From: Alphaproteobacteria bacterium
GTDB taxonomy: Bacteria; Pseudomonadota; Alphaproteobacteria; UBA6615
Length of the DNA stretch: 64,000 bases
Assembly: GCA_039980135.1 (NCBI GenBank)
Contig: JBDXCV010000009.1
Coordinates: 1 to 64,000, forward strand
Direction: 5' to 3'
Shown here: positions 25,896 through 41,009 of the stretch, in pieces
Position numbering within the stretch: the stretch's first letter is position 1
Layout: each line of letters opens with the position of its first letter
The notes under the pieces: model-generated
Database searches by the model: none
The model's input: the letters and a program-made list of their open reading frames with translations, nothing else
Told to the model about the DNA's origin: nothing
Program-made: the position numbers and the translations under genes

Positions 25896-25932
25896 GTTAA
25901 CCATTTGGGACTAGTCTGTTAACGATGATTAA
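25896..25932 (+). promoter_or_regulatory. Cluster of GTTAAC/TTAA sites upstream of ctrA
   Basis: Two GTTAAC sites (25896-25901 and 25918-25923) lie 16 bases apart. The first continues as TTAACCAT, the reported CtrA half-site, and the second begins a TTAA-N6-TTAA pair (25919-25932). They end 49 bases before ctrA in the region shared with fliI. CtrA autoregulation is a reasonable but unproven reading. Confidence 0.4.
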
Positions 25933-25981
25933 GCCGAACGAGCACCCGGATAAACGGGTGGGCGACCTACGGAGAGACAGA

Positions 25982-26698
25982 ATGCGTGTTCTATTAGTTG
26001 AGGACGATACCGCAACCGCCCAGAGCATCCAGATGATGCTCAAATCCGAAGGGTATATTTGCGACACCACGGATCTCGGCGAAGACGGTCTTGAGATCGG
26101 CAAGCTGTATGACTACGACATCATTATCCTGGATTTGATGCTGCCCGACATGGACGGCTACGAAGTCCTGAGACGCCTGCGCGAAGCGCGCGTGGAAACA
26201 CCGATCCTGATCCTTTCCGGCCTCAACGAGCCGGACAACAAGATCAAGGGCCTCGGGTTCGGCGCCGATGACTATCTGACGAAGCCGTTCGACAAGCGCG
26301 AGCTGGTCGCCCGCGTCCAGGCCATCGTGCGCCGCTCCAAGGGGCATGCCGATTCGGTCATTCATACCGGCCTCATGGACGTCAATCTCGATGCCCGGAC
26401 AGTTTCCGTCGAAGGCAAACCGGTGCATCTCACCGGCAAGGAATATGGCATCCTCGAGCTGCTCAGCCTGCGCAAGGGTACGACGCTGACGAAGGAAATG
26501 TTCCTGAATCACCTTTATGGCGGCATGGACGAGCCCGAGCTCAAGATCATCGACGTGTTCGTCTGCAAGCTGCGCAAGAAGCTGTCGACCGCCACCGAAG
26601 GCGACAACTACATCGAAACGGTCTGGGGACGCGGCTATGTATTGCGGGACCCGGTCGAAGAACCCGAAACCAAGAAATCCAAGGCGAAGGCCGCATAG
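25982..26698 (+). CDS. ctrA: Cell-cycle response regulator CtrA
   Basis: The start is ATG 25982 with a GGAGAG ribosome site; an in-frame ATG at 25925 gives a 19-residue extension not seen in the family. The 238-residue protein has the acidic pair in [19 protein letters not shown], phospho-acceptor Asp51 in [16 protein letters not shown], Lys in [13 protein letters not shown], and an OmpR-type winged helix with [19 protein letters not shown] and [20 protein letters not shown]. CtrA controls replication, division and flagellar genes in alphaproteobacteria. It ends in Ala-Ala, which in Caulobacter is the ClpXP degradation signal. It converges with chpT across a shared terminator. Confidence 0.95.
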
Positions 26699-27399: not shown

Positions 27400-27520
27400 C
27401 TCTGATCCTCGATATTCTACCAAGCTTACCGCCCGGTTGACCCCGGCCACGTCGGGCAATCTAATGCGATTCGCCCGCCCCACCCCATCCATCCGATCAA
27501 CTCCGAGCAACTGGCCAACC

Positions 27521-29209
27521 ATGAGTGAGCAGACGTCGCAAGACTTCCATCATCCCGGCAGCGGGCGCCGCAAGGCACCATCCCACCCGAAAGGACGACA
27601 GGTCGACGCCGACGCGCTCACGGAGGTTCATGCGCTTCTCGGAGACGCGCCGCTGCATCGCGAGCTTCTGATCGAGCATCTGCATGTGATCCAGGACGCC
27701 CATCACGGCCTGTCGCCGCGCCATCTCGCGGCACTGGCCGACCTGATGAAACTGTCCCTGGTCGAAGTCTATGAGGTCGCGACCTTCTATGCCCATTTCG
27801 ATGTCGCGACCGACGACAATGTGAAGATGCCGGCGGTGACGGTGCGCGTCTGCGACAGCCTGCCTTGCATGCAGGCCGGGTCGGAAAAACTGCTGGCCGT
27901 GCTTGAAACCCAAACCGCAGACGATGTGCGTGTCGTTAGCGCACCCTGCATGGGCCGCTGCGACCATGCGCCCGTCGCCGAGGTCGGCCACCGGCACATC
28001 GACGTCGCCACTCCGGGAAACGTCACCGCGGCCATTTCCACCGGTGAGACCCACCCCCAAATCGAGCCATACCAGACCCTCGATGTCGCCCTGAAGCGCG
28101 GCGCCTATGGCATTTTCCAGTCTTGCGTCTCGGAGAACCGAACCTACGAGATGGTCCATGGCGCCCTCGACAAGGCTGACTTGCGCGGCATGGGTGGCGC
28201 GGGATTTCCCGTCGCACGAAAATGGGATTTCGTGCGCGCCGAGGACGGCGCGCGGACGGTCGTGATCAACGCCGACGAGGGCGAGCCCGGCACGTTCAAG
28301 GACCGCTACTTCCTCGAGCGCTCTCCTCATTCGATTCTCGAAGGAGCGTTGATCGCGGCCTGGGCCGTCGATGCGGAATCTCTCTGGATCTATCTGCGGG
28401 ACGAGTATCCGGCGGCGCGGGAGATCCTCCGCCGCGAGATCGCGGCAATCGAGGAGTCCGGCATGATCGGACCCGGATACATTCAGCTTCGGCGTGGCGC
28501 GGGCGCCTATATCTGCGGCGAAGAAAGCGCGCTGATCGAATCGATCGAGGGTAAACGAGGTTTGCCCCGCCACCGGCCGCCCTATGTGGCCCAGAACGGG
28601 GTCTTCGGCCAGCCGACACTCGTACACAATGTCGAAACCGTATTCTGGGTCCGCGAGATCCTGGAGTCCGGGGCGGCCTGGTACAAGGATCAGGGCCGGC
28701 GCGGCCACGCCGGCGTGCGGGCCTATTCGGTCTCGGGCCGGGTCAAAAATCCGGGTGTAAAAATCGCGCCCAACGGCATCACCCTGAACGAGCTGGTTGA
28801 GGAATATTGCGACGGCATGGCCAACGGTCACGACCTTCGCGCCTACCTTCCCGGCGGGGCCTCGGGGGGCATCCTGCCCGCATCCATGGCCGATCTGCCG
28901 CTCGCATTCGGATCACTCGAGGAGCATGGCGCGTTCGTGGGATCCGGGGCGGTAGTGGTGCTATCGCAGGAAGATGATGTCCGCGCGGCAGCGCTGAACC
29001 TGACGCAATTCTTCGAGGATGAAAGCTGCGGCCAGTGCACCCCGTGCCGGGTGGGCTGCGAGAAGGCCGTCAAGCTGATGCAGGCGGGCGACTGGGATGC
29101 GGACTTGCTCGGCGAGTTGGCCCAGACCATGCGCGACGCCTCGATTTGCGGGCTGGGTCAGGCCGCGCCCAACCCGATGGAGAGCGTGCTCAGATACTTC
29201 GCCGACTAG
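27521..29209 (+). CDS. NAD-dependent formate dehydrogenase, fused gamma-beta subunit
   Basis: The start used is ATG 27521 (MSEQTSQDFHHPG); a 28-residue upstream extension has no family similarity. The 562-residue protein fuses a NuoE-like [2Fe-2S] domain (VRVCDSLPCMQAGSEKLL and SAPCMGRCDHAPVAEV give four Cys) to a NuoF-like domain with GMGGAGFPVARKWDF (FMN), INADEGEPGTFKDRYFLERS (NAD), GAGAYICGEESALIESIEGK and the 4Fe-4S set in SCGQCTPCRVGC plus SICGLGQ. It passes electrons from formate to NAD. FdsG and FdsB are separate proteins in Rhodobacter and Cupriavidus. The catalytic subunit is about 9 kb away. Confidence 0.9.
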   Translation: MSEQTSQDFHHPGSGRRKAPSHPKGRQVDADALTEVHALLGDAPLHRELLIEHLHVIQDAHHGLSPRHLAALADLMKLSLVEVYEVATFYAHFDVATDDNVKMPAVTVRVCDSLPCMQAGSEKLLAVLETQTADDVRVVSAPCMGRCDHAPVAEVGHRHIDVATPGNVTAAISTGETHPQIEPYQTLDVALKRGAYGIFQSCVSENRTYEMVHGALDKADLRGMGGAGFPVARKWDFVRAEDGARTVVINADEGEPGTFKDRYFLERSPHSILEGALIAAWAVDAESLWIYLRDEYPAAREILRREIAAIEESGMIGPGYIQLRRGAGAYICGEESALIESIEGKRGLPRHRPPYVAQNGVFGQPTLVHNVETVFWVREILESGAAWYKDQGRRGHAGVRAYSVSGRVKNPGVKIAPNGITLNELVEEYCDGMANGHDLRAYLPGGASGGILPASMADLPLAFGSLEEHGAFVGSGAVVVLSQEDDVRAAALNLTQFFEDESCGQCTPCRVGCEKAVKLMQAGDWDADLLGELAQTMRDASICGLGQAAPNPMESVLRYFAD

Positions 29210-30777
29210 GTCGATTGAAGCGGCCGTCGTGCGTCGCCGCGCCCGGGGACACAGACCGTCACGGCCGTTCCCTGGCCGGGGGTGCTGGTGACGGTAATCT
29301 CTCCCCCATGCGCATCGATAATCCGCTTGCAGATCCAGAGCCCGAGGCCCGCGCCGCCATTCTCGCGCGCGACAAGCGGGTCGATCGTTCGAAACGGTTC
29401 GAAGAGCCGCGGCAACTCGGCTTCATCTATGCCACAGCCCGTATCCCTGACAGTGATATCCGCCGCACCGCCGCCAACGCGGATGCATGAGACTTCCACA
29501 CTTCCGCCGCGCGGTGTGAACTTGAAGGCGTTGGAAAGAAGATTGAACATCACCTGACGCAGCGCACGGAGATCGATATCGAGTTCGAATCCCGGATCGG
29601 GTGTTCTGCCCATGAGTTTGATGCCGCGCTGCTCGGCGAGACTGCGGGTCAGCCGGAAAACATCCGACACAAAGCGACCGGCGGCGATCCTCTCGATATC
29701 GAGATTGTCGTCTGCAATATCGAGACACGAAACGTTCAGAAGGTCTTCCACCACCGACAGCAAATGCTGCGCACTGTCGAGAATGTCCGTCGCGTATCCC
29801 TTGTAGCTCTTGTTCTCCATCGGGCCGACCAGTTCCTTGGTCATGACTTCCGAGAATCCGATAATCGCGTTGAGGGGCGTCCGCAACTCATGACTCATCG
29901 TCGCGAGAAACTGGTTGGTGACAGCGTTTGCCGTGATCGCGATATCACGTTCGCTCAGCAACTCCTGGGCATAACGCTCCGCCTCGACCCGCTTGGTGAT
30001 ATCCCGCCCCGTCCCGCGATACCCCATGAAGTTCTGTGTCTCGTCGAAAATCGGGTGCCCGGAAATAGAGGCGTGTCCGATTTCCCCGGCTCCCGTCTTG
30101 AAGACATATTCGAGGTCGCGGAACGGTCGGCAGGCTTCGAGATCTTCCATGTGGTGCCGCCATTTTTCCTCGAATTCCTCATTCCGCGATTCCACGCCGA
30201 TGTCCTGCATCAATTCCAGCCGCGTGACACCGAGGACTTCGTCCAGCGGATAGCCGTAATAGTTGAAGACCGAGGACGAGTAGTAGACGAATCGGTGGTT
30301 TTCATCGGTCTCCCACAACCAGTCGGACCCGGCTTCCGCGAAGGCGCGAAATCGCGCCTCTGCCTGCGCCAACTGATCCCGCGCCTGGCGCAACTCTTCC
30401 GACCGATCAACCTGTTCTGGCGCCAGCTCGTCCAGATCAATCGCATGCACCAGCATCGCCGTTCGGCCATCGGCCTGCGGAACACCGCAACAACGCAAAC
30501 GAACGGTCACCGGCTCACCCTTCGGATAAAGCGTCCAGGCCGCATCCACGCTCTCGTCCCGCGAGAAACGGTCGGCATATTCGCGCAATCGCGAATGGGT
30601 TACATCCGAGACATTGGACATATCACGCGCTTGCAACTCCGCGAGGGATTCCGCCCGCCAGAATTCAACCGCAGCTTCGTTGCCCCACAAGACCCGATGA
30701 TGATCCAGATCGAAAACCCAGATGGGGACACCAATCAAAGACCAGCCTTCGGTATCGATCGTAAGTGCTTCCGTCAT
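29206..30777 (-). CDS. PAS-domain sensor histidine kinase
   Basis: The 523-residue protein has two PAS-like sensor parts (IGVPIWVFDLDHHRVLWGNE at the N-terminus; AGSDWLWETDENHRFVYYSS from about 145) and a kinase core: H-box NQFLATMSHELRTPLNAIIG, N-box LRQVMFNLLSNAFKFT, and G-boxes in DITVRDTGCGIDEAEL and GGAGLGLWICKRIIDAHGGE. No membrane helix or receiver is seen, so it is soluble and its response regulator is not adjacent. DivJ/PleC-like cell-cycle kinases share this core. It overlaps the fused formate dehydrogenase gene by 4 bases, convergently. Confidence 0.88.
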   Translation of the reverse strand: MTEALTIDTEGWSLIGVPIWVFDLDHHRVLWGNEAAVEFWRAESLAELQARDMSNVSDVTHSRLREYADRFSRDESVDAAWTLYPKGEPVTVRLRCCGVPQADGRTAMLVHAIDLDELAPEQVDRSEELRQARDQLAQAEARFRAFAEAGSDWLWETDENHRFVYYSSSVFNYYGYPLDEVLGVTRLELMQDIGVESRNEEFEEKWRHHMEDLEACRPFRDLEYVFKTGAGEIGHASISGHPIFDETQNFMGYRGTGRDITKRVEAERYAQELLSERDIAITANAVTNQFLATMSHELRTPLNAIIGFSEVMTKELVGPMENKSYKGYATDILDSAQHLLSVVEDLLNVSCLDIADDNLDIERIAAGRFVSDVFRLTRSLAEQRGIKLMGRTPDPGFELDIDLRALRQVMFNLLSNAFKFTPRGGSVEVSCIRVGGGAADITVRDTGCGIDEAELPRLFEPFRTIDPLVARENGGAGLGLWICKRIIDAHGGEITVTSTPGQGTAVTVCVPGRGDARRPLQST

Positions 30778-30860
30778 GCCTGCTCACGTCCATCCGGCAC
30801 CCGTGCGGATTCTCCAAACCCTTGGGTCGCCGATCGTCTCACCATTCCATAACGGAATTC

Positions 30861-30951
30861 TTAATCGCCAAATACCCAGCGATACATATGGAAATCGTCC
30901 TGATAACCGCCATTCGCGGAAAACGGCTCATTCGCCCAGAATTCATCGGCG
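30861..30951 (-). pseudogene. Displaced 3' end of the YciI-like gene (left direct repeat)
   Basis: This 91-base stretch matches 36238-36328, the last 30 codons of the intact YciI-like gene, at 85 of 91 positions; 30889-30951 is identical over 63 bases. It still ends at a stop codon (TAA for TAG), and all six differences fall on third codon positions in that reading (two change the residue, Ile to Met and Gln to His). No 5' part of the gene is attached. With the right copy it brackets a 5.3-kb block of unknown genes. The last bases overlap the end of the 423-residue protein gene. Confidence 0.85.
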
Positions 30952-32214
30952 ACCCGCGCTCAGTCCCTCAAGGTAGATTTCCGCATCCCGCAGATGCTCG
31001 TTGTCGGGAAGAATGCGGCGGCGCTCCCGGATGTATTCCAGCGAACGGTCCCAATCCCCCTTGCCGAATTCAAGGGCATCCAGCACGGCATGCGTCCGCG
31101 ACGGCGCTTGGGCGAGGAGCCTCGCCGCGGACGGATTGCGCATGACCTCTCCGCGAGTAATTTGTTCGAGTTGACTCGTGACGACCGCCCCGACGCCATC
31201 GGGATCATCCTCGTAAAAGAATTCTGCGGCCTGCTCCATCAGCCGGAGCGCGCGTTCGGGCTGCGCCCCGGACACGGCCAGGGCCCAGCCGAGACGCCAT
31301 GTCTGCTCGGCCTCGGCCTGATCGCGAAGCGACACATAGATCGCATCCCGCTCACCGGGCTGCAGCCGTTCGTCGGCCGCCGCACGGAGCTGTCGCGCCC
31401 AGATGATCGCGTCGTTCAGCGCCGAGCGGGTGCTCGGCGATGTCGCAGCCTGCCCCCGGGCCTCCGTGAAAATACGGACCGCGTCCTCGTAATTGCCCTG
31501 CCCCAGGCGGTACGCGCCCCGGAGGATCATTCCGTGGATCGCAATATCCGTACGCTCGACCTGTCGTTCCGCTTCGTACGGGTCGACGAGCGGGCCACCC
31601 GATGGAATGGCGCCCGAGAGCATGCGTTGGTTCACCAGCTCGTCGAGCCGAGCGACAAACGCGTCATGGTCCGTCCCGTTCGATTGCAGGCCGATGAACT
31701 CGCGGGCGCGCGCATAGGCGCCCCGTCCAACCTTCAACAAGCTCAGGAGAAACCCCGTGCGGGAGGTCGCCGACCAGTCGGCCCACAGGGCCTCGTCGAA
31801 AAGCGCGTCCAGTTTGTCATCGGTCCGCCGACCTGCATGGACCTCGAAGCCGGCCATGATGCGTTCGAATTCACCGCGCAGCCGTGCCGACTCCAATTCG
31901 TTACAGAAGGCGCCGACAGCGTCGTTCAGGCGCGCGCGCCGGTCGAGAAGTTGCCCCTGTTCCACCGCGCAATTCTCGAACGCAGCGGTTCCCTGGCCCA
32001 CGCTTTCACAGCGCGTGTTGAACCGTTCGCCGCGGGCGACAAGTGCAATCTGTTCGCTCAGCAAATTCGTTCGGCGGGCCTCGAACGTCCGGGCCGTTTC
32101 GCCCGTTAGAACCGGTGATATCGGGCAAATTCTGATGAACTGGGCCTGGGCAGAAGACATCGTGGCAATTTGTGCCAGCACCGCGATGACAACACCGAAG
32201 ATTCGTATCGGCAT
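30943..32214 (-). CDS. Exported TPR-like protein of unknown function
   Basis: The start used is ATG 32214; an in-frame TTG at 32238 is possible. The 423-residue protein has a signal peptide (MPIRIFGVVIAVLAQIATMS then SAQAQ) and Cys in FIRICPISPV just after the likely cut. The mature part is helical, Arg/Ala/Glu-rich, with TPR-like stretches such as RGAYRLGQGNYEDAVRIFTE and later LEYIRERRRILPDNEHLRDA. No catalytic motif was recognised. It is divergent to the Sel1 gene, and its last codons lie inside the left direct repeat, so it is the left end of the inserted block. Confidence 0.65.
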   Translation of the reverse strand: MPIRIFGVVIAVLAQIATMSSAQAQFIRICPISPVLTGETARTFEARRTNLLSEQIALVARGERFNTRCESVGQGTAAFENCAVEQGQLLDRRARLNDAVGAFCNELESARLRGEFERIMAGFEVHAGRRTDDKLDALFDEALWADWSATSRTGFLLSLLKVGRGAYARAREFIGLQSNGTDHDAFVARLDELVNQRMLSGAIPSGGPLVDPYEAERQVERTDIAIHGMILRGAYRLGQGNYEDAVRIFTEARGQAATSPSTRSALNDAIIWARQLRAAADERLQPGERDAIYVSLRDQAEAEQTWRLGWALAVSGAQPERALRLMEQAAEFFYEDDPDGVGAVVTSQLEQITRGEVMRNPSAARLLAQAPSRTHAVLDALEFGKGDWDRSLEYIRERRRILPDNEHLRDAEIYLEGLSAGRR

Positions 32215-32301
32215 GAGGAAGAGTCGCCTTGGTTGCAATTCGTCTCTAAGCTATGCCGCAACGACGGTACGGTGACGGGATCGTGTTTGTCGAGCATTGC
32301 T

Positions 32302-34230
32302 ATGAAACCTAGATATTTCGCCTCTCTGGCGATCCTTGGATTTCTTGCCGCATTGGCCCCCGCACAGCGAGGCCTTGCTTGCGATCTCACCTGTTCAAAT
32401 AACGTCTACTACGGGTGGCGCGCCTATCAATCTGACAATCATGCCGAAGCACTAAAATATTGGCGGGACTCCGCCGCGCAGGGCAGCGGCGAGGCCATGC
32501 ACGGCATCGGTACGCTCCACCTTGAAGGCAAAGCTGTCCCCCGAGACATGAGAGCGGCGGCGGATTGGTTCCGGAAAGGCGCCGAAGCCGGTTACTGGGC
32601 GGCCAAGATCGACTACGCACGCCAACTGATTTTGGGTGACGCCATCGAGCAGGACATCGCCAGTGCAGCGCTTTGGTTGCGGCGTTCGGTATTCGAGAAC
32701 GGGGTCGTCAACGGCACTGTTGCGTTGGACCAAGCTTCAGCGGATATCCATCACGAATACGATTCCGACAAATACCTGTGCTGGCGTCATCCATCGCGTA
32801 TCGAGAGGTTCACCGATTTCGTTCGTGAACTCGTACCCCAAAACAATGCCAGAAATTCAGCCGAAGCATTCGGCAAAGGCGATGGGCTCCTGGGCGGAAG
32901 AAAGCACGTCTATTATTTCCGAAGCACGGCACAAACGGAGGCGTACCTGCTGCACAACGGCGCCACAAAGTGCGGTCTGTACGAATGGAATCCAAACCGG
33001 AAGCCGTCATCACGTGCCGTCGAAGCCCACTATGTCGATCTTGGATGGGTTCGCCGGGCACTCAAGGCCGCGATTATCCTGGAGCCAGCCGAAGAGATTT
33101 ACTGGATCGATTATGCGCGGGCGTGGGCGATAAGCTCGCTCGAGTTTCCCCGCAATCTTCGGCTCGCGACCGACGCATGGGAGCATGTGTGGGCCATGCT
33201 CGCCGGCCAGGATCCGCAGTTACGGCAAGCCCGGTTGCGTCGGTTGCGCGAGGAGTTTGGGTTTTCGCTCGATCGTAGCGTTCTCGCCGAAATCGCCGAA
33301 CTTCATCTCCGACAAGCCAATTTCGACGCCGCATTTTTTTTCGCTTCTCAGATTTATGACGACTGGATCGACGGCGCGATCACCGAAGAGATGGACAATC
33401 TCGCTGCCGCAACGGGGATTGCGCGCGGCGGCGTCCCGGGTCTCGAGGACGCAAAGCAAATGGTCGAGGCTGTGCGCAACCGTGACGGTCGTCGCGCGTC
33501 CTGGTCCAATGCCGTGGACAGGGAAGATCGACACTTCCCCTGGCAGGAGTTCTGCGGCACCCGCGGTCGGCCCAGCGAGAAATCGATCATGCTCGTCGAC
33601 GCCATGCAGCAGCTGGCCAGTGCTGCATCCAAAGCGGGGAACGTCTACGCCAAGTACGAACTTTATCAGATGGTTCGCCTTGGCCAGAATATCCGACAGG
33701 ACGCACAGGACTACATCGACTATTTCCAAAACTACACCTGCGATCCGGACAAACGGATACCGGACTTCGATGAAGTGGGAGCGTATATCGACGACGCACG
33801 AGCGGCCATGCCCATTCCAAAGCTGTCGCGCGTAGGTACACTGTTGCTCGCCCAGGGAGAAGCGGCGGCTGACGCGGGCAACTTCGAGAGTGCACGACGC
33901 GCCTACCAGGACCTCGTGAACTCCTACGAGCCTTGGTATCCGCCGGCCTATTTCAATCGCGCCATGGCCGGCGCGGCGGTCTTCGGTATCAATCGGGACA
34001 CCGTCGAATGGCTGCAGACCTATCTCGAACTCGCGCCACACGGCGAGCGGGCCGACGAAGCCCGTCGGCTGATCGCGGAGTGGACACCGATGATCGACGG
34101 CATGGCCCGCCAGGGCCGAAACATGGATGGCGAAATGGTGATCCAGCCCGACCATGCGGTGATCGAATACCGCGAGACCGACGACAACGACAATACGGCA
34201 AACAGTTTCGGCGACAACGACTTCGATTAG
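32302..34230 (+). CDS. Exported Sel1-repeat protein of unknown function
   Basis: The start is ATG 32302 (MKPRYFASLAILGFLAALAP), which opens a signal peptide ending near RGLACDL. Longer frames start inside the divergent gene. The 642-residue protein has two or three Sel1/TPR-like repeats near the N-terminus (YYGWRAYQSDNHAEALKYWR, GIGTLHLEGKAVPRDMRAAA, WFRKGAEAGYWAAKIDYARQ), then a long region of unrecognised sequence, and TPR-like repeats near the end. A C-terminal Asp/Asn-rich tail follows. It leads a run of four rightward genes with 5- to 27-base gaps. Sel1 proteins often work as scaffolds; no function is assigned. Confidence 0.65.
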   Translation: MKPRYFASLAILGFLAALAPAQRGLACDLTCSNNVYYGWRAYQSDNHAEALKYWRDSAAQGSGEAMHGIGTLHLEGKAVPRDMRAAADWFRKGAEAGYWAAKIDYARQLILGDAIEQDIASAALWLRRSVFENGVVNGTVALDQASADIHHEYDSDKYLCWRHPSRIERFTDFVRELVPQNNARNSAEAFGKGDGLLGGRKHVYYFRSTAQTEAYLLHNGATKCGLYEWNPNRKPSSRAVEAHYVDLGWVRRALKAAIILEPAEEIYWIDYARAWAISSLEFPRNLRLATDAWEHVWAMLAGQDPQLRQARLRRLREEFGFSLDRSVLAEIAELHLRQANFDAAFFFASQIYDDWIDGAITEEMDNLAAATGIARGGVPGLEDAKQMVEAVRNRDGRRASWSNAVDREDRHFPWQEFCGTRGRPSEKSIMLVDAMQQLASAASKAGNVYAKYELYQMVRLGQNIRQDAQDYIDYFQNYTCDPDKRIPDFDEVGAYIDDARAAMPIPKLSRVGTLLLAQGEAAADAGNFESARRAYQDLVNSYEPWYPPAYFNRAMAGAAVFGINRDTVEWLQTYLELAPHGERADEARRLIAEWTPMIDGMARQGRNMDGEMVIQPDHAVIEYRETDDNDNTANSFGDNDFD

Positions 34231-34235
34231 GCAGT

Positions 34236-35279
34236 ATGCGACGATTCACAATCCATCTTCTCTTATTGGCCGGTCTGGCGGTATCGGCGATTTCGATGTC
34301 CGGCCCTGGCTATTCCCAGTCGATCGGGCCAGGACGCTGCGTACCCTGCCCGGAATGTCCGCCATGTGGTGATAGCTACAGCGGCGGCGGCGGTTCGGGC
34401 AGCGGCACCCCGGTGCTATTTTGCTTGTTCGTGCCGGGCTTGTGCCCCGGGTTCGGTGCCAGCACCAGCGAAGCTCCACCGACAGCAAAACCGGAAATGC
34501 CGCGCGTGATGCGGGATTGGCTTGGCGTACAGAAATCGATCCGCAGCAACCTTTCCGAGCGCATTATCCGCACGGACCCGAAACACAGCGCGACCGTGCG
34601 ATCCTCGGCAAATCTTTCAGACGGACGGACCGGAACCGCCTTTTTTACGCCACCGGGCGGCCGCCTGGATGAATTTCTACCAAATCCTCCCGAAGCCAGT
34701 CTCTTGGTTCCCAGCGGCCCGAAAGTGAAGGTGGACGCGACACTTGAGCAGTTGCAGTACGCGCTGGCGATCGTTCGGGAAGCGGACAAACAAAAAAACA
34801 GGGACAATCCGGAAGCGTACCGGTTTCTCCTCGACCAGGCCGGGCATATGCTCGCCGGCGAACCTGTGCAGCTGTACCTCGGCAACCTTCAGCCCGTACC
34901 CGCAACCGGGGCCGATCTCGATGCGATCGAGGACCTTTACGATGAACTCGGTGACGTGCGCGAGGGACGGGTCGCGATTGCCCGAGAGAAAGTCGGCGTC
35001 GCTCGGCAATCCGAGCGAACCGAGGCCAGAATAGATCAACACGACGGGTTTCGCTTCTACCTGTCCGACGAAAAGCCCAGTTCGCCCGAACTGCGGCAAG
35101 CGTTCAAAACCCAGGAGGAATTGGGTGATTCCTATGAGCGTTTCTTGATCAAGGACCGTGAACTTCGGCAGGAATACCGGGAGAAGGCCGAGGCGGTGAT
35201 GAAGGATTTACCGACCGTCGGATTCCACTTCGGAACCAAGATCGTCGATCAAAAACCTCCGAACGACACTGCCCGGTAG
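34236..35279 (+). CDS. Exported protein with Cys-rich N-terminus, unknown family
   Basis: The start is ATG 34236, 5 bases after the Sel1 gene stop; the frame is open further back but inside that gene. The 347-residue protein has a signal peptide (MRRFTIHLLLLAGLAVSAIS), then CVPCPECPPCGD, a Gly/Ser linker and CLFVPGLCPGF. The rest is charged and helical (for example LEQLQYALAIVREADKQKN, and RELRQEYREKAEAVMKDLP). The CxxCxxCxxC spacing could bind metal or form disulfides. No family was recognised. It is the second gene of the rightward block inside the direct repeats. Confidence 0.6.
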   Translation: MRRFTIHLLLLAGLAVSAISMSGPGYSQSIGPGRCVPCPECPPCGDSYSGGGGSGSGTPVLFCLFVPGLCPGFGASTSEAPPTAKPEMPRVMRDWLGVQKSIRSNLSERIIRTDPKHSATVRSSANLSDGRTGTAFFTPPGGRLDEFLPNPPEASLLVPSGPKVKVDATLEQLQYALAIVREADKQKNRDNPEAYRFLLDQAGHMLAGEPVQLYLGNLQPVPATGADLDAIEDLYDELGDVREGRVAIAREKVGVARQSERTEARIDQHDGFRFYLSDEKPSSPELRQAFKTQEELGDSYERFLIKDRELRQEYREKAEAVMKDLPTVGFHFGTKIVDQKPPNDTAR

Positions 35280-35306
35280 GCGGGATTTCACGAAAGGTGC
35301 GCACAA

Positions 35307-35600
35307 ATGTGTGTTCGACCGTTTGTAGTGGGTATTCTGGCAATAACCATGATCGTCGGCACACAAGCCCCGTCGATCGCTCAGAACGGAAATCCGTTCG
35401 TCAATCCGGGACAGGAGTCCGCCGGATCGGGCGCGCCGCGCAACCCGGGGAACGCCGGTGCACCCAGACTCGACCAGGGCTCCCTCCCGGTCATTTACCC
35501 GGTGGTCATACCGAATCCGCAAAATACGACGGCCGGGTCGGCCCGGGTCGTGCCGGTCCCGCGAGCGCCGCGGCCGATCCCCGAACGCGCGCGGGACTAA
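35307..35600 (+). CDS. Small exported Pro-rich protein
   Basis: The 97-residue protein starts at ATG 35307 (MCVRPFVVGILAITMIVGTQ, cut near SIAQ) with AAAGG upstream. The mature part is Asn/Pro/Gly-rich with PVVIPNP and VPRAPRPIPERARD. Such low-complexity exported proteins may be cell-wall or surface linkers, but none is recognised. Its stop (TAA) overlaps the next start by one base (TAATG), so the two are translationally coupled. Confidence 0.5.
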   Translation: MCVRPFVVGILAITMIVGTQAPSIAQNGNPFVNPGQESAGSGAPRNPGNAGAPRLDQGSLPVIYPVVIPNPQNTTAGSARVVPVPRAPRPIPERARD

Positions 35601-36241
35601 TGCTCGAAGAAGCGCCCCGGAGCGCGGAACTTGTCGCGCTCGCCGTCGCCGGATTCGGTGCAGTAATTATTCTCTATTCGATTCTCCTGAGGCGAAGCAT
35701 TTTGGTCATGACGCTCGGTGCGCTGATCGGCGCCGGAGCGCTCATCTCGCCGATGTTGTTGCGCGACCGCCCCGTAAACGTCCTGATCGTCCAAAGTTCT
35801 GAATCCGGTATCGAAACCGTTCGCGCGGACAATTTCCATGGCGGCAGTTACACGGACGCTAATGGCCGCACGATCCACATCGATCGACAACCCGGCTGGG
35901 GACCCGTCGCCACCATTGTTGTCAACGACACAGCGCACCTCGTCCGCATTCTCGGTTATGCCTATTCCCAATCGGGACTGGGTGCCGGGGGCGAATCATT
36001 GATCGCTGTCATTCCGCCGGGCAGCATGTCCGCACTCGCCGTCACGCCAGCCCTCGCCACATCCGAAACAGAGCCACCACCCGAGACGATATCCGCGGCT
36101 GGACCGTTCTATGATTTGGTGATCGCCCAGTGGTCCCAGGTTCCATATGACGCCGCCCGTGACGGAACGATTGAATCGCTTCGGGCCAGAGTCGAGATCG
36201 CGGAACTCGTCTACGACAATACTGACTTCATTCGACCCTAA
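35600..36241 (+). CDS. Membrane protein of unknown function
   Basis: The start is ATG 35600, one base into the previous stop. The 213-residue protein begins MLEEAPRSAELVALAVAGF and has two membrane segments (LVALAVAGFGAVIILYSILL and ILVMTLGALIGAGALISPML), then a soluble domain of about 150 residues (VNVLIVQSSESGIETVRADN and GWGPVATIVVNDTAHLVRIL) that faces one side of the membrane. No homologue was recognised. Its stop codon falls in the right direct repeat and overlaps the YciI-like gene end by 4 bases, convergently. Confidence 0.55.
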   Translation: MLEEAPRSAELVALAVAGFGAVIILYSILLRRSILVMTLGALIGAGALISPMLLRDRPVNVLIVQSSESGIETVRADNFHGGSYTDANGRTIHIDRQPGWGPVATIVVNDTAHLVRILGYAYSQSGLGAGGESLIAVIPPGSMSALAVTPALATSETEPPPETISAAGPFYDLVIAQWSQVPYDAARDGTIESLRARVEIAELVYDNTDFIRP

Positions 36242-36328
36242 TCCCCGAACACCCAGCGATAGATCTGGAAATCGTCCTGATAACCGCCATTCGCGGAAAA
36301 CGGCTCATTCGCCCAGAATTCATCGGCG
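36238..36328 (-). repeat. Right direct repeat (3' end of the YciI-like gene)
   Basis: These 91 bases match 30861-30951 at 85 positions, with 36266-36328 identical to 30889-30951. The repeats have the same orientation and are 5377 bases apart. They bracket a block of five unknown genes. Confidence 0.9.
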
Positions 36329-36921
36329 GCGGCACGGTCGGGCAACTCGATCATCAGCGCCGAGCCCACATTCTCGGTTCCATCCGGTGACCGCAGAGGG
36401 CCACGGAAAATGAAACGGTCCTCATGGGCCTTGAAGAAATCCTCATGGGCTTTCAGATGCACGGCGATGAACGGCGCGGCATCGGGAATCTTCCAGCCGA
36501 AATACAGGAACTGCTGTTCACCCTTGCGCGCGTAGTCGGCCTGGCGCTTGATAAAACTGTTCGACCAGCGGCGAACGTCTGTCCGGTCATAGACCCCGGC
36601 CTTCGCCAGAGGGTCGTCGGCCGCAAAGGCCTCCGCGAATTCCCGGCCGCCGAGCTCGACGAACCACGCCGTCGCCCGGATATCGCTTTCGTCATCGTCG
36701 CCGACGATATGGCCGTAGCCGATCAGCTGGTCACCGAGTGACTTGGCATAGGCCTTCTGGGCTTCGAGGTTGGCGGCGCGGGCATCGGCCTGGCCGGGCT
36801 TGTCCCAGGCGACGATGACCCATTGTGCGGGCTTGTCGCGATAATATTGCGCCAGTTCATCCGGCGTCAGCCCGTAACGCGGGTCGTCGGGCTGATAGCC
36901 GGTGATTTTTTCGTCGCTCAT
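36238..36921 (-). CDS. YciI-family protein with two YciI-like domains
   Basis: The 227-residue protein has two tandem dimeric ferredoxin-like YciI domains. The first contains PAQWVIVAWDKPGQADARAA and GYGHIVGDDDESDIRATAWF, then EFAEAFAADDPLAKAGVYD. The second contains FIAVHLKAHEDFFKAHEDRF, GSALMIELPDRAAADEFWAN and a PFSANGGYQDDFQ end. YciI proteins are small cytoplasmic enzymes or scaffolds with an active-site His-Asp pair; here no function is fixed. It is intact, but the last 30 codons are repeated at the left end of the adjacent block. It converges with that block. Confidence 0.75.
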   Translation of the reverse strand: MSDEKITGYQPDDPRYGLTPDELAQYYRDKPAQWVIVAWDKPGQADARAANLEAQKAYAKSLGDQLIGYGHIVGDDDESDIRATAWFVELGGREFAEAFAADDPLAKAGVYDRTDVRRWSNSFIKRQADYARKGEQQFLYFGWKIPDAAPFIAVHLKAHEDFFKAHEDRFIFRGPLRSPDGTENVGSALMIELPDRAAADEFWANEPFSANGGYQDDFQIYRWVFGD

Positions 36922-38237: not shown

Positions 38238-41009
38238 ATGAGTAACACGATCCGATTCACCCTCGACGGGCGCGAGGTCACGGCCGCGCCCGACGAGACC
38301 ATCTGGCAGGTCGCGGCCCGCGAAGGCACCGAGATTCCACATCTCTGCTATGCCCCCGAGCCGGGCTACCGGCCCGACGGCAACTGCCGCGCCTGCATGG
38401 TGCATATCGAGGGCGAACGGGTGCTGGCGGCATCCTGTCTGCGCAAGCCTGCCGACGGCATGGTGGTGGACACCGAGGCCGAACGGGCCCGCAAGGCCCG
38501 CGCGATGGTGATCGAGATGCTGGCGGCGGACCAGCCGGACCGCGCCACCGCCCATGACGCAGATTCCAGATTCTGGCAGTGGGCCGACCGCGTAAACATC
38601 GAATCCAGCCGTTTCCCGTCGCGCGATGCCACCCCCGAGGCCGATCCCAGCCACCCCGCGATGGCCGTCAATCTCGACGCCTGCATCCATTGCAACCTGT
38701 GTGTGCGGGCGTGCCGCGAGGTCCAGTCGAACGATGTCATCGGCATGGCCATGCGGGGGACTGAATCGAAGATCGTGTTTGATTTCGACGACCCCATGGG
38801 CCAGTCCACCTGCGTCGCCTGCGGCGAATGCGTCCAGGCCTGCCCCACCGGCGCCCTGCTGCCGTCGACGATGGTCGATGCGGCCGGCGTCGGCGTGGCG
38901 AAGGCCGACGAGACGGTCGACAGTGTCTGCCCCTTCTGCGGGGTCGGCTGCCAGATCACCTATCACCTCAAGGACGGCAAGATTCAGAAGGTCGATGGCC
39001 GCGACGGCCCGGCGAACGAGCAGCGCCTGTGCGTCAAGGGGCGGTTCGGTCTCGACTATGTGCATCATCCCCACCGGCTGACCACACCGCTGATCCGGAT
39101 AGACGGCATCGGCAAGCTCTGGGACGACCAGGTCGACCCGGCTGATCCCTCGACCCATTTCCGCGCGGCGAGCTGGGACGAGGCCCTCGAATTCGCGGCA
39201 GCCGGCCTGACCCGCACACGCGACGAACATGGCGGCCAGGCCGTCGCCGGGTTCGGTTCGGCCAAGGGCTCCAACGAGGAGGCATATCTTTTCCAGAAGC
39301 TGATCCGCGCCGGGTTCCGGACCAACAACGTCGATCACTGCACGCGGCTGTGCCATGCCAGTTCGGTCGCGGCGTTGATGGAGACCATCGGCTCGGGTGC
39401 GGTCACCGCGCCCTTCACCGCCGCCGAAGACACGGACTGCATCATCGTGATCGGCGCGCGTCCGACGGAAAATCATCCCGTGGCCGCCACCTACATCAAG
39501 GACGCGGCGAAACGCGGGGCGAAGCTGATCCTGATGGACCCGCGCGGTTATGCGCTGACCCGCCACGCCGATCACTTTCTCCAGTTCAAGCCGGGCACGG
39601 ACGTCGCGCTTCTGAATGCGATCATGCACACGATCGTCGCGGAAGACCTGACCGACGCGCAGTATATCGCCGGCTACACCGAAGACTACGAAGCGCTGCG
39701 CGCCTCGCTGACGGACTTCACGCCCGAAGCCATGGCCGACGTCTGCGGCATCGATGCCGAAACCATCAAAACCATCGCCCGGACCTATGCCAACGCCGAA
39801 CGCGCGATGATCTTCTGGGGGATGGGCATCTCCCAGCATGTGCACGGGACGGACAATGCACGCTGCCTGATATCGCTGGCGCTGATGACCGGCCATGTCG
39901 GCCGCCCCGGGACCGGCCTGCACCCGCTGCGCGGCCAGAACAACGTTCAGGGCGCATCGGACGCGGGCCTGATCCCCATGGTCTATCCCGACTATCAGAG
40001 CGTGGCCGACCCGGACATCAAGGCGAAGTTCGAGAGGCTCTGGGGGGTGGAGGACCTCAACCCCGAACCGGGGCTGACCGTGGTCGAGATCATGGACGCG
40101 GCGCGCGCGGGTGACATCCGGGCGATGTATGTGATGGGCGAGAACCCGGCCATGTCGGACCCGGACCAGCATCACGCCCGTCAGGGGCTCGCCGCATTGG
40201 ATCATCTCGTGGTGCAGGAAATCTTCCTCACCGAGACGGCATTTCATGCCGACGTCATCCTGCCGGCCTCGGCCTGGCCCGAGAAATCCGGCACGGTCAC
40301 CAACACCAACCGGCAGGTCCAGATGGGCCGCCCGGCCCTCGACGCACCGGGCGGCGCGAAACAGGATTGGTGGATCATCCAGGAGCTCGCACGCCGCGTC
40401 AGGCTCGACTGGAATTACGACGGCCCGGCGGATGTCTATGGCGAGCTGCGCGAGGCCATGCACTCGATCGACGGCATCAGCTGGGAACGGCTGGAACGCG
40501 AGGATGCGGTGATCTATCCGTGCGACGACGAGAACGCGCCGGGTACGGAAATCATGTTCGCAAGCGGTTTTCCAACACCCACGGGCCGGGGCAAGTTCGT
40601 CCCGACCGAAGTGCTGCCGCCGGACGAACTGCCGGACACCGACTATCCCATGGTGCTTTCGACCGGCCGGCTGCTTGAACACTGGCACACGGGTGCCATC
40701 ACGCGCCGTGCCACGATCCTCGACCATCTCGAACCCGAGGCGGTCGCCTCGCTGCATCCGCGCGAGATGAAGCGCCTCGACGTCTGGCCGGGCGACCCGA
40801 TCCGGGTCTCGACCCGGCGCGGCACCATCGAGATCGCGGCCCGGTCCGACCGGGACGTGCCCGAGGGCATGATCTTCATCCCCTTCTGTTTCGCCGAGGC
40901 GGCGGCCAATTTGCTGACCAACCCGCAGCTGGACCCGTTCGGCAAGATCCCCGAGTTCAAATTCTGCGCCGCGAAGGTGGAGGCCGGCGTCAAGAACGCT
41001 GCGGAATAA
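38238..41009 (+). CDS. fdsA: NAD-dependent formate dehydrogenase, catalytic subunit (FdsA type)
   Basis: The 923-residue protein has an N-terminal [2Fe-2S] domain (HLCYAPEPGYRPDGNCRACM), a NuoG-like His-Cys part, two ferredoxin sites (CIHCNLCVRACREV and CVACGECVQACPTG), and a Mo/W-bis-MGD part with its own cluster (VCPFCGVGCQITYHLKDGKI). The metal ligand is probably Cys in DHCTRLCHASSVAAL, the FdhF position where selenocysteine occurs in other species. The C-terminal pterin-binding domain carries TGRLLEHWHTGAITRRA. It oxidises formate, or reduces CO2, with the FdsGB fusion. FdhD, MobA and TupABC nearby serve its cofactor; FdsD was not found. Confidence 0.93.
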   Translation: MSNTIRFTLDGREVTAAPDETIWQVAAREGTEIPHLCYAPEPGYRPDGNCRACMVHIEGERVLAASCLRKPADGMVVDTEAERARKARAMVIEMLAADQPDRATAHDADSRFWQWADRVNIESSRFPSRDATPEADPSHPAMAVNLDACIHCNLCVRACREVQSNDVIGMAMRGTESKIVFDFDDPMGQSTCVACGECVQACPTGALLPSTMVDAAGVGVAKADETVDSVCPFCGVGCQITYHLKDGKIQKVDGRDGPANEQRLCVKGRFGLDYVHHPHRLTTPLIRIDGIGKLWDDQVDPADPSTHFRAASWDEALEFAAAGLTRTRDEHGGQAVAGFGSAKGSNEEAYLFQKLIRAGFRTNNVDHCTRLCHASSVAALMETIGSGAVTAPFTAAEDTDCIIVIGARPTENHPVAATYIKDAAKRGAKLILMDPRGYALTRHADHFLQFKPGTDVALLNAIMHTIVAEDLTDAQYIAGYTEDYEALRASLTDFTPEAMADVCGIDAETIKTIARTYANAERAMIFWGMGISQHVHGTDNARCLISLALMTGHVGRPGTGLHPLRGQNNVQGASDAGLIPMVYPDYQSVADPDIKAKFERLWGVEDLNPEPGLTVVEIMDAARAGDIRAMYVMGENPAMSDPDQHHARQGLAALDHLVVQEIFLTETAFHADVILPASAWPEKSGTVTNTNRQVQMGRPALDAPGGAKQDWWIIQELARRVRLDWNYDGPADVYGELREAMHSIDGISWERLEREDAVIYPCDDENAPGTEIMFASGFPTPTGRGKFVPTEVLPPDELPDTDYPMVLSTGRLLEHWHTGAITRRATILDHLEPEAVASLHPREMKRLDVWPGDPIRVSTRRGTIEIAARSDRDVPEGMIFIPFCFAEAAANLLTNPQLDPFGKIPEFKFCAAKVEAGVKNAAE

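Follow-up and report, generated by a model that had tools for sequence, protein, structure and literature searches.

A candidate CIME-like islet in the 3' end of a YCII-domain gene carries five genes for predicted envelope proteins

Introduction

The e14 element of Escherichia coli is integrated at the 3' end of the icd gene. As outlined in one account (PMC6379469), the element brings a slightly different replacement end for the gene, and the duplicated gene tail lies on its far side. Cis-mobilizable elements (CIMEs), in the outline given in PMC5704250, keep both end sites and have no integration or transfer genes; the same outline treats them as decay products of integrative elements. In Dehalococcoides, islands at ssrA that have no integration module and are flanked by gene-end repeats were interpreted as CIMEs, according to the relevant section of PMC3146451.

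Here we describe a block of five genes, P1 to P5, in an Alphaproteobacteria bacterium (assembly GCA_039980135.1; 3.76 Mb in 15 contigs, 98.8% complete). The window, by which we mean the whole stretch of DNA that was analysed, comprised 64,000 nucleotides of contig JBDXCV010000009.1. The block is best explained as an acquired CIME-like cargo islet in the 3' end of a YCII-domain gene, probably encoding a periplasmic and inner-membrane assembly, a reading that we hold with moderate confidence. It is filed as CIME-like rather than as a proven CIME, because no related ICE or IME was identified from which it might descend or by which it might be mobilised. The locus is a clean case, with a small islet, an all-orphan cargo of predicted envelope proteins, a conserved metabolic setting, no integrase and two readable junctions. 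Should the five cargo proteins truly form a complex, that complex would be an as yet unnamed assembly.

Results

Gene layout and flanking repeats

The block lies in a formate dehydrogenase locus, in which genes for histidine kinase, YCII-domain, GNAT and FKBP proteins stand between the subunit genes. The molybdopterin subunit matched, at 68%, genes labelled formate dehydrogenase alpha subunit on plasmids. We take the flanking formate dehydrogenase genes to be fdsB and fdsA. The features of the locus were as follows.

27437-29209, NuoE/NuoF-like fused subunit, on the left side of the locus
29206-30777, minus strand, PAS/histidine kinase, the left neighbour of the block
30862-30951, minus strand, left direct repeat, a YCII 3'-end remnant (ADEFWANEPFSANGGYQDDFHMYRWVFGD stop) adjoining the histidine kinase; interpreted as an attL-like junction
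30943-32214 (30943-32238 in the TTG-started form), minus strand, P1, 423 aa from the ATG, TPR-like protein, predicted to be exported
32302-34230, plus strand, P2, 642 aa from an ATG, Sel1/TPR-type protein
34236-35279, plus strand, P3, 347 aa, Cys-rich protein, predicted to be exported
35307-35600, plus strand, P4, 97 aa, small Pro-rich protein with an N-terminal hydrophobic stretch
35600-36241, plus strand, P5, 213 aa, protein with two predicted N-terminal transmembrane helices
36239-36328, minus strand, right direct repeat, with which the intact YCII gene ends (ADEFWANEPFSANGGYQDDFQIYRWVFGD stop); read as an attR-like junction with an islet-supplied tail
36238-36921, minus strand, YCII-domain gene (the target), 227 aa, intact
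38238-41009, molybdopterin subunit, on the right side of the locus

The first-pass annotation had placed five open reading frames inside the repeats, with gaps of 5, 27 and -1 bases in the rightward run P2-P3-P4-P5, and both coordinates and sequence bore this out. The 5.3-kb islet is organised as two divergent units, the leftward P1 and the rightward run, with 87 bases between P1 and P2. For P1 the ATG at 32214 was preferred over the TTG at 32238, and for P2 the ATG at 32302 was used. The last two codons and the stop of P1, and the stop of P5, lie inside the repeats. Promoter and terminator scans gave nothing above chance.

The flanking repeats are direct, 90 nt long and 94% identical, and the 3.76-Mb genome has no third copy; they provide the two related end sites that are a feature of CIMEs. 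The minus strand of each encodes ADEFWANEPFSANGGYQDDF-xx-YRWVFGD followed by a stop, which is the YCII C-terminus; the left repeat is a 29-codon YCII fragment beside the histidine kinase. The target gene is intact, and a second tail encoding the same C-terminus lies displaced from it. This arrangement resembles that of e14 in icd, where, as outlined in PMC6379469, the 3' end of the gene is kept intact by the incoming end and the old end is left as a displaced fragment. The scale differs, since the duplicated tail is 163 bp at icd and 90 bp at the islet, and e14 is a 15-kb prophage whereas the much smaller islet has no recombinase and no recognised phage genes.

When the repeats were aligned in the sense of the gene, the first 63 bases were identical and all five mismatches fell within the last 27 (P = 0.0018 for such a placement among 90 bases at random, the 27-base cut having been chosen post hoc). 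Chance was discounted as the source of the repeats, because the 63-bp perfect run is in-frame YCII C-terminus in both copies. In relatives, only 41-48 of these 63 bases agree with the two copies; the core therefore either became identical recently or is kept so by recombination.

Empty sites in relatives

The YCII loci of relatives were taken and the proteins of the window were mapped onto them. P1 to P5 were absent from all 13 loci, which came from 13 genomes with the YCII 3' end and fdsB on one contig; a fourteenth locus (G014:C358), in which the contig ends inside YCII, was excluded from the count. The empty site looked for by comparison with e14 in icd was thus present in 13 of 13 cases, these being relatives and not members of the same species. 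The block is consequently either an insertion into a kinase-YCII arrangement or a segment that arrived with the kinase and YCII.

A kinase was found between fdsB and YCII in only two of the 13 loci (G022 and G011), where it adjoins YCII; the other 11 had none. No other protein of the window mapped to this interval in any of the 13. YCII was 82% identical to that of G022 versus 64-66% to those of the congeners G002 and G006, and the opposite held for fdsB, GNAT and FKBP, which were nearer to the congeners. Since YCII and the kinase resemble another genus while the flanking genes resemble congeners, the islet could, on these affinities, have arrived together with the kinase and YCII in one ordinary gene transfer. 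In the explicit form of this explanation, the kinase, P1 to P5 and YCII came in a single transfer by homologous recombination from a donor resembling G022 and G011, and the left repeat is what remains of an older YCII copy that was partly deleted. Such a transfer would account both for the contrasting identities and for the presence of the kinase in G022 and G011 alone, but neither genome has P1 to P5 at the locus, and searches of the rest of both genomes gave no P1, P3, P4 or P5. Furthermore, a simple deletion of the old YCII copy does not predict mismatches that are all clustered in the tail. We regard this origin as unlikely.

Several other features of the locus were recorded. Across 29206-36921 of the window the kinase and YCII resemble genus g6 while the flanking fds genes resemble congeners, and a kinase-YCII segment seems, from this pattern, to have been exchanged between genera in the formate dehydrogenase locus. 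YCII 3' fragments in other genomes (residues 197-227 in G003, 170-227 in G004, and others) looked like junctions of an integration hot spot; on inspection they were either ends of contigs or degraded, insert-free copies of YCII/GNAT in the interval from fdsB to fdsA, and the hot spot was rejected. Both YCII and GNAT were degraded in G003, G001 and G017 (L049 5274-5625, L061 8113-8776 and L062 7287-7794), which suggests that the cell can do without these two genes of the fdsB-fdsA interval. The response regulator encoded at 25925-26698 of the window shares 95-96% identity with those of G004 and G022, across genus boundaries, a level much higher than that of its neighbours; it is likely to be an essential regulator of the CtrA type.

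Mobility genes and the proposed origin of the islet

Searches of P1 to P5 with Pfam, NCBIfam, PADLOC and PHROGs gave no match to integrase, transposase, relaxase or phage structural families. No transfer, replication, plasmid or defence family was found in the block either, in agreement with the absence of integration and transfer genes from CIMEs, and the region 30862-36328 contained no element-borne site-specific integrase of the kind looked for by comparison with e14. In the whole genome, the Phage_integrase family was represented by two genes only, both XerC/XerD-like. One gave its best match to XerC, the other to the general Xer subfamily model and then to XerD, and both fell just below the NCBIfam XerC and XerD equivalog cut-offs. 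The genome had no gene of the Resolvase family, for which the same search was positive in 10 of 14 control genomes. No dedicated recombinase for the islet was visible in this genome, which is 98.8% complete.

An islet that has no recombinase, transfer or replication genes points either to a decayed element or to a recombinase acting in trans. A further reading, which we consider distinctly unlikely, is that the block is a relic of a larger prophage or ICE that has lost its integrase and kept its ends and a cargo that no longer functions. Ends without a recombinase are what such a relic would leave, and CIMEs are described as decay products of this kind in the outline in PMC5704250. However, no other phage, transfer or plasmid family was found in the block, and the open reading frames are full and tightly packed, with a low second-position GC content like that of the neighbouring genes and no pseudogene debris noticed.

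The preferred explanation, an acquired islet, supposes that the YCII gene between fdsB and fdsA took up circular or donor DNA at its 3' end through recombination, with a crossover within the 63-bp identical core. The incoming DNA would have supplied an alternative 27-bp end with which the YCII protein remained whole, and the previous end, now the left repeat, would have been pushed beyond the insert. The islet would then be a decayed element with ends and cargo only, like a CIME, or one moved by a recombinase in trans; plain homologous recombination via 90 bp at 94% might have acted instead of a site-specific recombinase. The circular intermediate and the direction of acquisition are putative. 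Counting against the islet, a second copy, a circular form and a donor genome were not seen, so that mobility is surmised from a single locus. The GC content of the block (0.607), which is near that of the window (0.623), counts against acquisition. It is quite improbable, in our estimate, that P1 to P5 form an undescribed envelope machine and are all that is carried by a minimal islet which enters the 3' end of a YCII gene by means of a recombinase in trans.

The encoded proteins

All five proteins had been described as aimed at the envelope. Hydropathy analysis agreed with this for P1, P3 and P4, each of which has one N-terminal hydrophobic stretch, and for P5, which has two; the N-terminal stretch of P2 fell below the hydropathy threshold and its signal peptide was read by eye, so that P2 may be exported. 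The statement that none of the proteins was recognised was nearly right, the exceptions being a Sel1 repeat in P2, weak TPRs in P1 and P2, and a C-terminal motif in P1.

The Sel1 repeat of P2 lies at approximately residues 44-134 of the ATG-started form and scored 29.6 bits against a Pfam cut-off of 30.7; when P2 was compared with the PDB, solved Sel1 proteins matched with E values down to 2.4e-25. Apart from marginal noise, NCBIfam, PADLOC and PHROGs gave only matches of the Sel1 kind, in P2. The TPRs were sub-threshold with Pfam in P2 and also in P1, where the best scored 18.6 bits against a gathering threshold of 27.9, and P1 was accordingly not assigned to the TPR family. P3 carries CVPCPECPPC at residues 35-44, and its residues 35 to 70 include six Cys. 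Its single-sequence structure model was poor (mean pLDDT 38.9), as was that of P5 (mean pLDDT 46.6), in which helices 7-29 and 34-55 coincide with the two membrane spans and the tail looks, with low confidence, beta-rich in the model. P1, P3 and P5 gave nothing credible against the PDB.

Relatives were sought in 289 genomes of the class, separately for P1, P3, P5 and P2 without its Sel1 part, and in 24 genomes of the family. The Sel1 part of P2 is widespread (70 of 95 genomes including its own), and among the matches listed those elsewhere lay within query residues 3-168. Without this part, P2 found its own gene and two stop-containing noise matches only. P1 had matches in 10 of the 289 genomes including its own, mostly noise; P3 was found in its own genome only, and P5 in its own together with five noise-level matches. 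In the family, P1, P3, P4 and P5 were found in their own genome only, with one noise match in G018. Plasmid searches gave no match to P1, P3 or P5 and, for P2, matches to the Sel1 part only. No match was found in viral contigs with P1, P2, P3 and P5, or in genome contigs with P2, in scans that require an exact shared peptide word and so reach close relatives. The single genome-contig match to P3, in L089, was rejected as an antisense frame across unrelated genes. Weak matches (E ~0.002-0.02) to P1, P5, P2 without Sel1 and a joined query were dismissed as noise, several having internal stops; the joined-query search was itself weak, scoring two candidates per genome and missing P5 even in its own genome.

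The five-gene block is complete in no other sampled genome, and none of the other family or class genomes had even two of the genes. The earlier view that the set travels as a unit is tentative, resting on one occurrence and on a reading of the repeats. Among the open-licence papers listed in full-text searches for such a gene set and for comparable elements, none described it, which is a thin test of novelty. The same lack of co-occurrence in any other genome examined would be expected if the five genes were unrelated lineage-specific orphans that lie together with no common function. This we hold to be rather unlikely, since four of the genes follow one another closely on the same strand, P4 and P5 overlapping by 1 base, and N-terminal hydrophobic stretches occur in at least P1, P3, P4 and P5.

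An envelope assembly is the most likely product of P1 to P5. In its predicted form, P5 would anchor it in the inner membrane, P1 and P2 would serve as periplasmic scaffolds built of helical repeats, and P3 and P4 would be small exported partners, P3 perhaps bearing disulphides or metal via CxxCxxCxxC. A physical complex of the five proteins, which the first-pass annotation took to be plausible at the cell surface, is suggested more tentatively, the single-sequence structure models having been too poor to inform it, and each of these biochemical roles is putative.

Residues 373-420 of P1 form a C-terminal motif of approximately 50 residues that is common to proteins of G218, G082 and G110. A three-row profile of the motif, two rows of which were the G082 and G218 matches, found it in 4 of 270 genomes including its own, so that two of the other three were the profile's own rows. 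With this profile the E value of the G110 match to the P1 C-terminus improved from 0.0097 to 3.4e-8, and by sequence G110 is likely to be a third carrier. P1 ends three residues past the motif and the G110 reading frame does the same; P1 therefore need not be truncated by the junction. The proteins of G218 and G082, which belong to the same class, are predicted exported TPR proteins in which Cys- or Gly-rich N-terminal stretches precede the TPRs. Their likeness to P1 is confined to the motif, and their genes form tandems with further TPR genes, P2 to P5 not being among their neighbours.

The tandem TPR-like genes of G218 and G082 were observed at L079 1780-4622 and L080 3467-10616, the first gene having a Cys/Gly-rich N-terminal stretch and the P1 motif. 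These tandem genes possibly represent an unnamed family.
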